This document shows positions 23,563 to 57,765 of a DNA stretch of 64,000 nucleotides, one piece after another. The notes beneath the pieces were generated by a model. The model was not told the origin of the DNA, did no database searches, and saw only the letters and a list, made by a program, of their open reading frames with translations. Source of the DNA: Pollutibacter soli (lineage in GTDB: Bacteria > Bacteroidota > Bacteroidia > Chitinophagales > Chitinophagaceae); assembly GCA_029269725.1 (NCBI GenBank), contig JARJHS010000002.1:682001-746000 (forward strand), written 5' to 3'. The position numbers were made by a program, and so were the translations under genes. The number at the start of each line of letters is the position of its first letter. Positions within the stretch are counted from its first letter, which is position 1.

Positions 23563-23590
23563 GCGTGTTACGTTTAACGTTCTACGTTAA
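23563..23590. repeat. 7-base-period array, ACGTTNA type, four units
   Basis: Units GCGTGTT, ACGTTTA, ACGTTCT, ACGTTAA follow each other without gaps, 26 bases before the 3' end of rng. Confidence 0.6.
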
Positions 23591-43722: not shown

Positions 43723-43764
43723 GACAACGGACAGCTGACAACCGGCAACTCCGACGCTCAACAG
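43723..43764. repeat. 7-base-period array, GACAACN type, six units
   Basis: Units GACAACG, GACAGCT, GACAACC, GGCAACT, CCGACGC, TCAACAG follow each other just before the 3' end of the flippase gene. Confidence 0.6.
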
Positions 43765-47735: not shown

Positions 47736-48188
47736 ATGCGGGCACTTATACAACGTGTTAAATCTGCTTCGGTAAAAGTGGATGGAAATATTACGGGTAA
47801 GATAACTACGGGGTTGCTGGTGCTGCTGGGGATCGAAGATGCTGATATGCAGGAAGATATTGAATGGCTTAGTGCAAAAATCGTCAACCTGCGCATTTTC
47901 GGAGATGCCGGAGGGGTGATGAACCTCAGCGTACGGGATGTCGATGGAGGGATCTTGCTTGTCAGCCAGTTCACTCTTCATGCGGCAGTCAAAAAGGGTA
48001 ACAGACCTTCCTATATCAGGGCATCAAAACCTGATTTTGCCATCCCTATGTATGAGAAAATGATCACTCGGTTGGAAAGGGACCTGGGTAAAAAAGTAGA
48101 AACCGGTGTCTTCGGTGGGGATATGCAGGTAGAGCTGATTAATGATGGACCTGTTACTATTTGGATAGATACTAAAGACAGGCAATAG
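47736..48188 (+). CDS. dtd: D-aminoacyl-tRNA deacylase
   Basis: The 150-residue enzyme removes D-amino acids from mischarged tRNA. DTD motifs are present: MRALIQRVKSASVKVDG at the start, LLVSQFTLHA (SQxT) in the middle and NDGPVT with the Gly-cisPro near the end. The stop codon lies inside the first unit of a 7-base-period array (48180-48214), so the repeat reaches into the last two codons. Confidence 0.95.
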   Translation: MRALIQRVKSASVKVDGNITGKITTGLLVLLGIEDADMQEDIEWLSAKIVNLRIFGDAGGVMNLSVRDVDGGILLVSQFTLHAAVKKGNRPSYIRASKPDFAIPMYEKMITRLERDLGKKVETGVFGGDMQVELINDGPVTIWIDTKDRQ

Positions 48189-48214
48189 GCAATAGTAAGA
48201 AGGCAATAGGAAAC
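48180..48214. repeat. 7-base-period array, AGGCAAT type, five units
   Basis: Units AGGCAAT, AGGCAAT, AGTAAGA, AGGCAAT, AGGAAAC. The first unit contains the end of dtd and its stop codon. Confidence 0.65.
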
Positions 48215-48378
48215 AGCCGACCCCTGTATGTGCAAGCCTGTTTTCTGTATTCAGCGTGCTTGCCGGCAGGCAGGTATTCTGTTTCTGATTAAGGCAAAAT
48301 GCAAAATAATTTCTGGCAGTTGAAGTAGTGGAATAATTATCATGCACCTCTAAGCTATAAACCGGTTGTTCGACGGAA

Positions 48379-48406
48379 ACGAACAACGAAAAACGAACAA
48401 CGCAAA
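48379..48406. repeat. 7-base-period array, ACGAACA type, four units
   Basis: Units ACGAACA, ACGAAAA, ACGAACA, ACGCAAA end one base before the ATG of the MazG-like gene, so the array occupies its ribosome-binding region. Confidence 0.6.
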
Positions 48407-49547: not shown

Positions 49548-49599
49548 ACCTTAAGATTATTTCAAATATATATTGAATTTTGCCACAGTTCTGGGTTCA

Positions 49600-49634
49600 A
49601 CGTTTAACGTTCAACGTAGAACGTTTAACTTTGC
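49600..49634. repeat. 7-base-period array, ACGTTNA type, five units, ending in the glyS promoter
   Basis: ACGTTTA, ACGTTCA, ACGTAGA, ACGTTTA, ACTTTGC. The last unit supplies the TAACTTTG -7 box of glyS. Confidence 0.65.
49626..49633 (+). promoter_or_regulatory. -7 promoter box of glyS
   Basis: TAACTTTG is an exact TAnnTTTG match, six bases before the ATG at 49640, and is formed by the last units of the repeat array. Confidence 0.6.
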
Positions 49635-51110: not shown

Positions 51111-51152
51111 TTAGTTTAAAGTGGAAGGTGTAAAGTTTAAAGTAAAACAGCC
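51111..51152. repeat. 7-base-period array, AAAGTNN type, about six units
   Basis: TTAGTTT, AAAGTGG, AAGGTGT, AAAGTTT, AAAGTAA, AACAGCC lie 25 bases after the glyS stop. Confidence 0.55.
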
Positions 51153-56390: not shown

Positions 56391-56418
56391 ACGTTCGACT
56401 TTCTACGTTTCACGTTTT
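56391..56418. repeat. 7-base-period array, ACGTTNN type, four units
   Basis: ACGTTCG, ACTTTCT, ACGTTTC, ACGTTTT, 80 bases after the mfd stop. Confidence 0.6.
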
Positions 56419-56558: not shown

Positions 56559-56930
56559 ATGTCAACAAATTCAGGTAACACCGAATATTTGGGTACGGAA
56601 ACAACACCCACGTATACACCTAACGGCGACGAGCGCACGCTGGCAATACTTGTGCATGTCCTGTCCATCTTTTTCTGGCTATTTCCTGCGTTGATTATTT
56701 ATCTTATAAAAAAAGATGAATCTCCATTTGTCGCCGCTCATGCAAAAGAACAATTGAATTTCCAGATAACTATTTCGATAGTTTACATCGCTCTTTTTAT
56801 ATCCATTGTTGGAATATTCTTTCTCTGGGTGCCAGGCATCTTTGTATTGATCTTCTGTATCATTGGCGCAATAAAAGCCAGTGATTTAAAGCTGTACAGG
56901 TTCCCGATGAACTGGAGAATTATAAAATAG
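56559..56930 (+). CDS. DUF4870 domain membrane protein
   Basis: The 123-residue protein has a polar N-terminus of about 25 residues and then the DUF4870 pattern: LAILVHVLSIFFWLFPALIIYLI, KKDESPFVAAHAKEQLNFQ and a long hydrophobic hairpin. The family, distantly Tic20-like, has no settled role. It is monocistronic, with a strong terminator 17 bases after the stop. Confidence 0.9.
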   Translation: MSTNSGNTEYLGTETTPTYTPNGDERTLAILVHVLSIFFWLFPALIIYLIKKDESPFVAAHAKEQLNFQITISIVYIALFISIVGIFFLWVPGIFVLIFCIIGAIKASDLKLYRFPMNWRIIK

Positions 56931-56947: not shown

Positions 56948-56981
56948 AAAAAAGCTGTCATCACAAGATGACAGCTTTTTT
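56948..56981 (+). terminator. Strong rho-independent terminator of the DUF4870 gene
   Basis: A perfect 15-bp stem (AAAAAAGCTGTCATC with GATGACAGCTTTTTT) has an ACAA loop and T runs on both sides, so it can serve both strands. A 7-base-period array begins at the next base. Confidence 0.9.
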
Positions 56982-57030
56982 ACGTTTTACGCCCAACGTT
57001 TAACGTTCAACGTATTACGTTCAACCTTTA
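56982..57030. repeat. 7-base-period array, ACGTTNA type, seven units
   Basis: ACGTTTT, ACGCCCA, ACGTTTA, ACGTTCA, ACGTATT, ACGTTCA, ACCTTTA without gaps. It starts directly after the terminator and its last unit contains the DUF1080 gene stop codon. Confidence 0.7.
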
Positions 57031-57765
57031 CATTGGCCTGATCCAGATATTGCGATAGGATACAGGGTTGCCGTGATCCTGCAATGAAATGGGTTCTTTA
57101 TCACCATGTTTTTTATACTCAGGAGAACCTATGTATTCTGTGCCGCCCCAGAGTTCGCGATTATTCTGTACAAGAATACCATTCTGAAAAACAGTAACTC
57201 TTGCCGGACTTTTCAGAATTCCATTTTCATAAAAACGTGGAGCTGTAAAAATCACATCGTAAGTCTGCCATTCTCCCGGAGGACGACAGGCATTCACCAA
57301 TGGTACGAGTTGTTTGTAAATACTTCCCGCCTGTCCGTTGACGTACGTTTTGTTATTGTAGTTATCGAGCACCTGTAACTCATATTTGCCCATCAGAAAA
57401 ATACCGCTGTTGCCACGACCCTGGCCGTCACCTTTTACAACTGCAGGTGTTCTCCATTCAATATGCAGCTGGCAATCACCAAAACCTTCCTTTGTAGTAA
57501 TTCCTCCTGTGCCACCTGTTACGGTCATTGCGCCATCTGCAATTGTCCATTTAATATCAGTACCTCTGTCTGCTTTCCAGCTGGAAAAATCTTTTCCGCT
57601 GAATAAAACGATTGCATCCGAAGGCGCATCTGCAGACGTTTTGCCCGGAGTAACTACCGGAGGTACGGGCTCATAATATTCTGAAAGTTTTGGATCCCCC
57701 TGGCGCTGCGCCTGAGCAGCAAGAATACACGAAAACGCTACCAACAGTCCCGCTGTTTTTTTCAT
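57028..57765 (-). CDS. Exported DUF1080 protein (3-keto-disaccharide hydrolase-like)
   Basis: The 245-residue protein has a signal peptide (1-19, ending AQAQ) and a LamG-like DUF1080 domain: IVLFSGKDFSSWKAD, GGITTKEGFGDCQLHIEWRTP, GNSGIFLMGKYELQVLDN and the C-terminal PISLQDHGNPVSYRNIWIRP. Some members hydrolyse 3-keto-disaccharides. It lies three bases after the Gfo/Idh/MocA gene on the same strand, so the two are almost certainly co-transcribed, consistent with a sugar 3-oxidation route in the periplasm. Confidence 0.92.
   Translation of the reverse strand: MKKTAGLLVAFSCILAAQAQRQGDPKLSEYYEPVPPVVTPGKTSADAPSDAIVLFSGKDFSSWKADRGTDIKWTIADGAMTVTGGTGGITTKEGFGDCQLHIEWRTPAVVKGDGQGRGNSGIFLMGKYELQVLDNYNNKTYVNGQAGSIYKQLVPLVNACRPPGEWQTYDVIFTAPRFYENGILKSPARVTVFQNGILVQNNRELWGGTEYIGSPEYKKHGDKEPISLQDHGNPVSYRNIWIRPM

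Follow-up and report, generated by a model that had tools for sequence, protein, structure and literature searches.

At positions 56982-57030 of the window, meaning the whole 64,000-nucleotide stretch of Pollutibacter soli DNA analyzed here (C12:682001-746000 of a 6.12-Mb genome in 37 contigs), a heptad array of seven units separates two convergent genes. The first gene (56559-56930, plus strand) was assigned to DUF4870 by its domain, and the second (57028-57765, minus strand) encodes a 3-keto-disaccharide hydrolase (Pfam PF06439). An intrinsic-terminator-like hairpin, read from the sequence and from folding, lies at 56948-56981 on the plus strand and consists of six A, GCTGTCATC, the loop ACAA, GATGACAGC and six T. 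The array begins with the base directly after this T-run and is gap-free; its units are, in order, ACGTTTT, ACGCCCA, ACGTTTA, ACGTTCA, ACGTATT, ACGTTCA and ACCTTTA. The last heptad contains the stop codon of the hydrolase gene (57028-57030; TAA on the minus strand, TTA as read). The initial annotation had described seven gap-free heptads that start directly after a terminator and finish in a neighboring stop codon, and this was matched base for base. Its description of the units as mostly ACGTTNA is a little strong, since the exact motif occurs in only three of the seven. The array, which belongs to the AACGTTN class described below, is absent from both relatives that were read at this locus, G031 and G028.

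Seven other places in the window had been proposed to share this architecture. Arrays of the AACGTTN class were located at 23564-23588, at 49588-49632, 5' of a gene for a class II aminoacyl-tRNA synthetase, and, in weak form, at 56391-56417. The remaining four have the units AAAGTNN (51113-51143), AGGCAAT (48180-48210), AACGAAC (48378-48402) and GACAACN (43723-43749, with a lag-7 score of 9.0, under the genome-wide thresholds). When lag 7 alone was considered, all eight loci exceeded their shuffles (p <=0.004; 1000 dinucleotide shuffles each). With any lag from 4 to 12 allowed (300 shuffles), p was 0.000 at 56982, 49600 and 48379, 0.003 at 23563 and 51111, 0.017 at 48180 and 0.023 at 43723. 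The proposed recurrence thus stands at lag 7, and the locus at 56391 becomes marginal under the broader test (p 0.053). Over the window as a whole, the lag-7 autocorrelation is weak (z 2.3, with lags 3, 6 and 21 higher, in a table made with ORF rules slightly different from those of the other scans).

Period 7 across the genome

About one fifth of the P. soli genome was read (1.264 Mb: C1:1-800000, C12:1-400000 and the window), with the longest ORFs taken as genes, without a trained gene finder. The intergenic sample comprised 730 stretches (150,619 bp), and the expected values are means of five dinucleotide shuffles. In total, 74 lag-7 arrays were detected in this sample versus 0.0 in the shuffles, and each of the other lags from 2 to 13 gave 0-2. 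The intergenic autocorrelation at lag 7 reached a z of 49.5. Harmonics were evident at lags 14, 21 and 28 (36, 17 and 13 runs), compared with 6, 4 and 3 runs at lags 16, 18 and 24. The arrays are mostly intergenic, only 9 having been found in 1.11 Mb of called ORFs versus the 74 in 0.15 Mb of intergenic DNA. TRF, which is independent of the lag scan, assigned periods of 7, 14 or 21 to 112 of 188 merged arrays. In the whole genome, the pattern ACGTTNAACGTTNAACGTT, with one mismatch allowed, yielded 444 and 470 matches on the two strands, and the reversed pattern yielded none.

The lack of a lag-7 excess over shuffled intergenic DNA had been named beforehand as the result that would speak against a family of such arrays; the excess is present in the fifth of the genome read. 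A period of seven whatever the unit, as originally claimed, was found by lag scans and TRF both in P. soli and in its relative G033. The period-7 observation is therefore confirmed, and it extends well beyond the window.

The same DNA also contains an interspersed repeat of ~150-170 bp, 91-94% identical among three intergenes (C1:627927-628359, C1:500327-500562 and C1:771011-771371), one of which contains a heptad array as well.

Anatomy of the AACGTTN arrays

A set of 143 arrays was collected (96 from P. soli and 47 from G033), chosen first by overall lag-7 score rather than by motif. These were divided into 60 arrays of AACGTTN, 14 of AACGAAC, 12 of AACTATG and 57 of other units. In the AACGTTN arrays, the identity between adjacent units was 0.81-0.96 across the hexamer (A.83, A.95, C.91, G.96, T.92 and T.81) and fell to 0.37 at base 7, for which 0.26 is expected of a random base. 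Neutral decay would lower identity at all phases alike, and the uneven phases of AACGTTN therefore count against plain decay. The earlier impression that decay of a single repeat explains the arrays poorly is borne out for this class. Uneven phases (p<0.05) were also observed in 18 of the 45 arrays of other units that were long enough to test.

Exact triples of the hexamer at 7-bp spacing (AACGTT.AACGTT.AACGTT) had identical first and second N in.37 of 19 cases in P. soli and in.23 of 52 in the G033 stretches. Among AACTAA triples, the corresponding value was 1.00 of 15. The whole-unit likeness of neighbors associated with slippage thus holds for AACTAA and others, and AACTAA arrays behave like plain slippage, but AACGTTN arrays depart from it. 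In P. soli, neighboring N were slightly more alike than chance (43/129 versus 32.9 expected), a trace of plain duplication. No palindromic hexamer other than AACGTT formed exact triples at this spacing in the P. soli or G033 DNA read.

The seventh base behaves differently in AACGTTN loci of other bacteria. It was equal in 24/24 comparisons in Prevotella, 31/32 in Verrucomicrobia (7 of 8 loci used) and 9/9 in the Geomonas-type loci, and it was mixed in two Chloroflexi genomes (2/11 and 2/12 equal) and one Methylomirabilota genome (3/7); these counts cover 33 of the 69 listed loci outside the Chitinophagales isolate bin_80, all found by the AACGTTN pattern itself. The homogeneous regime is ordinary slippage, and the mixed regime is not. 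Simple copying slips do not explain the combination of a fixed hexamer and an almost free seventh base. One new feature is a palindromic hexamer that is kept with a nearly random base 7, in a motif that some other bacteria carry as homogeneous repeats.

Location relative to genes

In P. soli, 29 of 44 AACGTTN-class arrays were located no more than 10 nt from a stop codon, i.e., at a gene 3' end (22% if placed evenly). The median distance was -1, a value that may be inaccurate wherever an ORF extends into the array, since genes were taken as the longest ORFs. Among 46 such arrays, 19 occupied convergent, 25 tandem and 2 divergent gaps, out of 137, 476 and 161 available, respectively. In G033, 15 of 20 were within the same distance of a 3' end (47% if even), although densities in this genome are biased, because its stretches were largely chosen for holding arrays. 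Arrays of other units share the preference less strongly (18/49 no more than 10 nt from a stop, 9% if even; 12/61 in divergent gaps), and it is therefore not special to AACGTTN. A second new point is that the AACGTTN arrays abut stop codons, with only 2 of 46 between divergent genes. Frequently the stop codon is part of the array, because TTAA and TTGA carry TAA and TGA. The 3'-end location may reflect a function or mere tolerance.

At the downstream array border, the word TTAGC was found in 9 of 33 cases versus 30 of 834 controls (p 5e-6 before correction for 1024 words), and no longer border motif stood out after correction. Several arrays end in ACGTTAGC, for example at the downstream borders at C1:199246, C12:229256 and C12:376255. 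In the gene sense, the seventh base is purine-biased at the gene-end arrays of P. soli (73/100; 43/56 in gaps of at least 90 bp with the first spacer skipped); the bias is absent in tandem gaps alone (17/30) and in G033 (48/103).

Replacement of terminators by arrays was also considered, and the small numbers of gaps compared gave no sign of it. As bare proportions, terminator-like signals occurred in 0.56 of 9 convergent gaps with AACGTTN-class arrays versus 0.66 of 87 without arrays, and in 0.28 of 18 versus 0.38 of 282 tandem gaps.

Distribution among genomes and turnover of sites

Among 60 genomes (37 of the same genus and 23 of the order), the AACGTTN pattern was detected only in P. soli and G033; within the genus, 35 of the 36 other genomes thus lack it. 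The exact triple was found in 4 of 198 Bacteroidota genomes, with 89 occurrences per strand in P. soli and 6, 2 and 1 in the others. In 84,980 species genomes, at least 111 stretches and at least 80 loci with the pattern were found, and the carriers among the matches listed include Chloroflexi, Methylomirabilota, Verrucomicrobia, Prevotella, Geomonas and others. Scanned in groups, 43 of the 80 listed loci, which had been found by the pattern itself, showed mostly period 7 with the seed arrays included, and a few groups also showed 6, 8 or 9. TRF analysis of 280,249 bp from other members of the genus gave multiples of 7 in 3 of 29 arrays. In G041, of the same order, TTGCAAN arrays were observed (25 matches per strand, one mismatch allowed), representing a second palindromic hexamer with one free base, mixed with TTGAAAN and TTTCAAN (e.g., L052:1501-1556).

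As the initial annotation had proposed, orthologous intergenes were compared, and the presence of arrays was found to change among species, the comparison being at species rather than strain level. Eight array intergenes were compared with G033 (43563, 48189, 49548 and 51086 of the window; C1:407127, 411723, 415307 and 418640), the window intergenes 56311 and 56931 falling outside the G033 coverage. G033 carries an array in four of the eight (43563, 48189, 49548 and C1:415307) and the identical unit in only one, 49548, which holds the array at 49588-49632. In the counterpart of the GACAACN array at 43723-43749 it has AACGTTN instead, and the counterpart of the AAAGTNN array at 51113-51143 is an intergene of ~11 bp without an array. 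Conversely, where G033 has the array of L233, the genes of P. soli are separated by just a few bases. In G031, six of the eight intergenes were read, and heptads occurred only at 49548, where the units differ from that of P. soli (a scan gave AGTNNNC and inspection by eye GTCNNNN); a weak lag-7 run is present at this intergene in G008 too (threshold 11, not 13). In a smaller orthologue table of 17 intergenes, arrays were present in both species in one case, in G033 only in two and in P. soli only in none (Fisher p 0.18).

The units, in contrast to the sites, are shared. Two arrays within P. soli have the same unit with a chance of 5.5% versus 0.17% in the null (~32 times that of random intergenic heptamers), and the chance for pairs of P. 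soli and G033 arrays is 6.1%. The unit is thus inherited, and the sites mostly are not, which is a third new point. A shared word at changing sites points to a trans-acting factor or, alternatively, to copying machinery that prefers certain sequences.

Loss of mismatch repair as a cause was set aside, as MutS1 is present in P. soli. A MutS-type ATPase (open frame of 590-606 aa) was encountered in 5 of 41 genus genomes (G000:C35:237139-237783, G033:C96, G031:C119, G015:C364 and G022:C341). At least one heptad run is present in the DNA read from four of the carriers (P. soli, G033, G031 and G015), and the fifth, G022, was read over 3 kb only. Shared ancestry may explain this co-occurrence.

Proposed explanation and its alternatives

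The explanation that we favor, with a probability of roughly 40%, has two layers. In the first, new intergenic arrays would arise by replication slippage with a 7-nt step. The strict period, the many units and a presence that differs between species are direct observations; slippage itself we infer from the literature, and the strict step and unit variety fit a published suggestion, cited in PMC4692102 and PMC4679880, that relates slippage to the footprint of the polymerase. In the second layer, the AACGTTN class would be kept by a sequence-specific trans-acting factor, most likely a DNA-binding protein that recognizes (A)ACGT(T), the palindromic core, and occupies it with a 7-bp step. Such a reading of the core would leave the hexamer conserved and the seventh base free. 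Slippage alone cannot keep six bases together with a free seventh, and for this reason slippage birth combined with AACGTT recognition is favored. AACGTTN combines a conserved hexamer, a nearly free base, a 3'-end location and turnover of sites with a shared unit, and only this class calls for the second layer; the many other units need the first alone. The putative factor, its nature and any benefit it may bring are what we infer from this combination. The turnover of sites makes it doubtful that any single locus matters much. The 35 genus genomes that lack the pattern, the 3'-end preference shared with other units and the trace of plain duplication also weigh against this explanation.

The main rival, which we consider unlikely though the strongest of the alternatives, is purely mutational and combines 7-nt slippage with fold-back template switching. 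The self-complementarity of AACGTT allows a strand that has slipped or folded back to pair with any of the hexamers. Growth would then need the hexamer and not base 7, and inverted copying would turn N into its complement. In G033, 43 exact five-hexamer matches were found at 39 places, and 37 arrays remained for the palindrome counts after two places with overlapping matches were left out (5000 shuffles). The outer N pair was complementary in 25 of 37 (9.2 expected; 0/5000 shuffles) and both pairs in 13 (2.3 expected; 0/5000), while the inner pair alone was not significant (14 of 37; 9.2 expected; 266/5000). Adjacent N were alike in only 15 of 111 cases (27.6 expected). With all 43 matches the outer and double counts were 26 and 13, and in the 25 distinct patterns they were 14 and 7. 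Similarly, palindromy was detected in the Chloroflexi (p=0.0065; 28 arrays, all 24 Chloroflexi-titled loci), also with four mostly homogeneous loci left out (p=0.006; 20 of 24). In the fetched G033 sample the palindromy was weaker (33 arrays, p=0.011), and adjacent N were not depleted (30/133 versus 33.1).

Fold-back copying would also fit the site turnover and two features read from the P. soli sequence, a perfect palindrome of 70 bp (C1:289169-289238) and the sequence CCC-A-GGG at C1:48333. Template switching that creates and mends stems has been documented (PMC8794818). However, palindromic N are absent or reversed in P. soli (34 arrays, p=0.999). Antisymmetric N, hinted at by two arrays, were dropped as a general rule, as they are strong in G033 but not significant in P. 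soli (15/48 versus 11-12 expected), and another palindrome score gave no clear excess in either genome. Palindromy is therefore a property of some carriers and not of the class, and this contrast between P. soli and its relative is also new. Moreover, fold-back copying alone cannot give base 7 four values while the hexamer stays intact. It explains G033 best and P. soli worst.

A second alternative, which appears rather improbable, is an RNA hairpin at mRNA 3' ends, acting as a terminator or 3' stabilizer, with a stem built of heptads. The 3'-end location and the palindromic N of G033 are consistent with it, and a precedent is known from the trnL intron of Nostoc, whose P6b stem consists of heptads (PMC4476775). 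Intergenes with arrays folded better than controls in tandem gaps (mean z -2.53 in 26 versus -1.67 in 60 controls) and in divergent gaps (-2.08 in 5 versus -0.64 in 60), and some G033 intergenes also fold (e.g., L258:1291-1342, L174:11709-11791 and L173:8730-8823). For 98 P. soli arrays, inverted partner arrays in the same intergene scored 9.4 versus 8.2 for arrays of other intergenes, compared with 8.1 versus 8.1 for direct partners; the inverted excess is partly explained by convergent gene pairs in which both genes end in an array. In the convergent gaps, however, which are the densest in arrays, folding was no better than in controls by the mean (-2.37 in 18 versus -2.80 in 60), although the median was lower (-3.23 versus -1.69), and better folding was thus rejected as a general property of array intergenes. 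In addition, terminator-like signals show similar frequencies beside arrays and in other gaps, and the N of P. soli lack palindromy. An Rfam search of five sources (the window and four G033 loci) found no match at the arrays, and a known RNA family was set aside on this basis. A SAM riboswitch (RF00162) was noted at L173:4625-4731 of G033.

Dispersal of the arrays as cargo of a mobile element is very unlikely. Units are shared between loci, and identical N patterns occur at different G033 sites (ACGT at five places), as such dispersal would predict. Nevertheless, the 90 flanks of 45 AACGTTN-class arrays gave only 6 similar pairs, and in three of these the flanks face each other between two neighboring arrays; 90 random flanks also gave 6. 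An element with a conserved flank is therefore rejected, and only 6 stretches with the pattern were found in viral contigs. We give still less credence to the writing of heptamers by a reverse transcriptase or telomerase-like enzyme, a process to which a strict period and a free base would be suited, as an idea only, given a 6-nt template and one untemplated base. An RVT_1 search gave no match in the P. soli genome, which makes such a writer unlikely, and the domain was found in 5 of 41 genus genomes, namely G033, which has arrays, and G005, G019, G028 and G029, which do not. A writer with a recognizable RVT_1 domain is thus largely refuted; a heptamer writer of another kind, one possibility raised in the initial annotation, may exist. 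Chance or an assembly artefact, which the shortness of single window loci and the p of 0.053 at one of them might suggest, is refuted by the 74 versus 0.0 arrays, by the 0 matches of the reversed pattern versus 444 and 470, and by the AACGTTN pattern in a separate assembly, that of G033.

Comparison with known heptad systems

An excess of heptamer repeats is already known in bacteria, some Bacteroidetes included, and as a kind it is not new. The initial annotation had named cyanobacteria as the precedent, which holds, but a precedent exists in Bacteroidota as well: TAACTGA arrays were described in five Bacteroidetes, with other heptamer repeats beside some of them (MacGregor 2015, PMC4679880). 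Heptamers have also been cited as over-represented in many bacteria, together with the polymerase-footprint idea (Rehm 2015, PMC4692102). According to these two sources, the heptameric SSRs include the cyanobacterial STRR, GGGNATC of Xanthomonas, GGGGAYT of Nostoc and TAACTGA of Beggiatoaceae, cyanobacteria and the five Bacteroidetes. The P. soli arrays resemble them in the 7-bp unit, over-represented relative to other periods, in the largely intergenic location, the many copies and the patchy distribution. Degenerate positions, as in the Xanthomonas unit, and differences between relatives are also on record there (PMC4692102, PMC4679880). Unlike these repeats, the P. soli unit consists of a self-complementary hexamer and a nearly free base, is tied to gene 3' ends and occurs beside several other units within one genome.

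In the group I intron of Nostoc trnL, the P6b stem is built of degenerate heptads (TDNGATT and NNTGAGT), and its arms gain or lose a whole unit on one side (PMC4476775). By eye, the convergent G033 intergene L173:8730-8823 is likewise a long hairpin, whose arms share a series of different heptads (GAAG+TAC, GCC, TAT/TAA and TGC/CAC), one arm having one whole extra heptad. Unlike the Nostoc stem, the arrays occupy many loci and form hairpins only in part, and no group I intron was matched by Rfam in the window and the four G033 loci.

A physical precedent for recognition with a 7-bp step may be seen in Omega/ParB of pSM19035, a ribbon-helix-helix protein that binds unspaced 7-bp repeats (WATCACW), one dimer per site, and requires at least 4 contiguous sites for full activity (PMC9499535). 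Both arrays are gap-free at 7 bp, and by analogy Omega could serve as a working model for a protein array of this step. Its unit, however, is not palindromic and differs from AACGTTN, and its sites form a plasmid centromere that overlaps promoters. The TetR-type regulator TTHA0973 of Thermus recognizes AACnAACGTTnGTT (PMC6651687), which shares with the arrays an AACGTT core with free bases beside it. That site is a single 14-bp palindrome, and its outer triplets are the opposite of those in the arrays, which read GTTnAACGTTnAAC. In Chloroflexi, the (GATAGRA)n satellites of Chloroflexus aurantiacus are heptamer-derived repeats with a different unit (PMC6749651). No paper on AACGTTN-type arrays was found in the open-access literature as judged by titles and the beginnings of abstracts, an absence that is weak evidence.

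Implications

The most novel possibility, to which we attach a low probability, is a heritable trans-acting system that writes or maintains AACGTT with a 7-bp step and any base at position seven, so that the "word" is inherited and its sites turn over. If true, a few unrelated lineages (Chitinophagales-type Bacteroidota and some Chloroflexi) would carry a genome-wide mark, in P. soli located mainly at the 3' ends of genes, and a still undescribed protein or enzyme would make or read it. With one period and many units, the P. soli genome offers a clean case on why seven is favored in bacterial repeats. AACGTTN shows two behaviors, being homogeneous in Prevotella, Verrucomicrobia and the Geomonas-type loci and having a nearly free base 7 in P. 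soli, G033 and some Chloroflexi. This contrast makes the choice between slippage alone and slippage with recognition directly testable.
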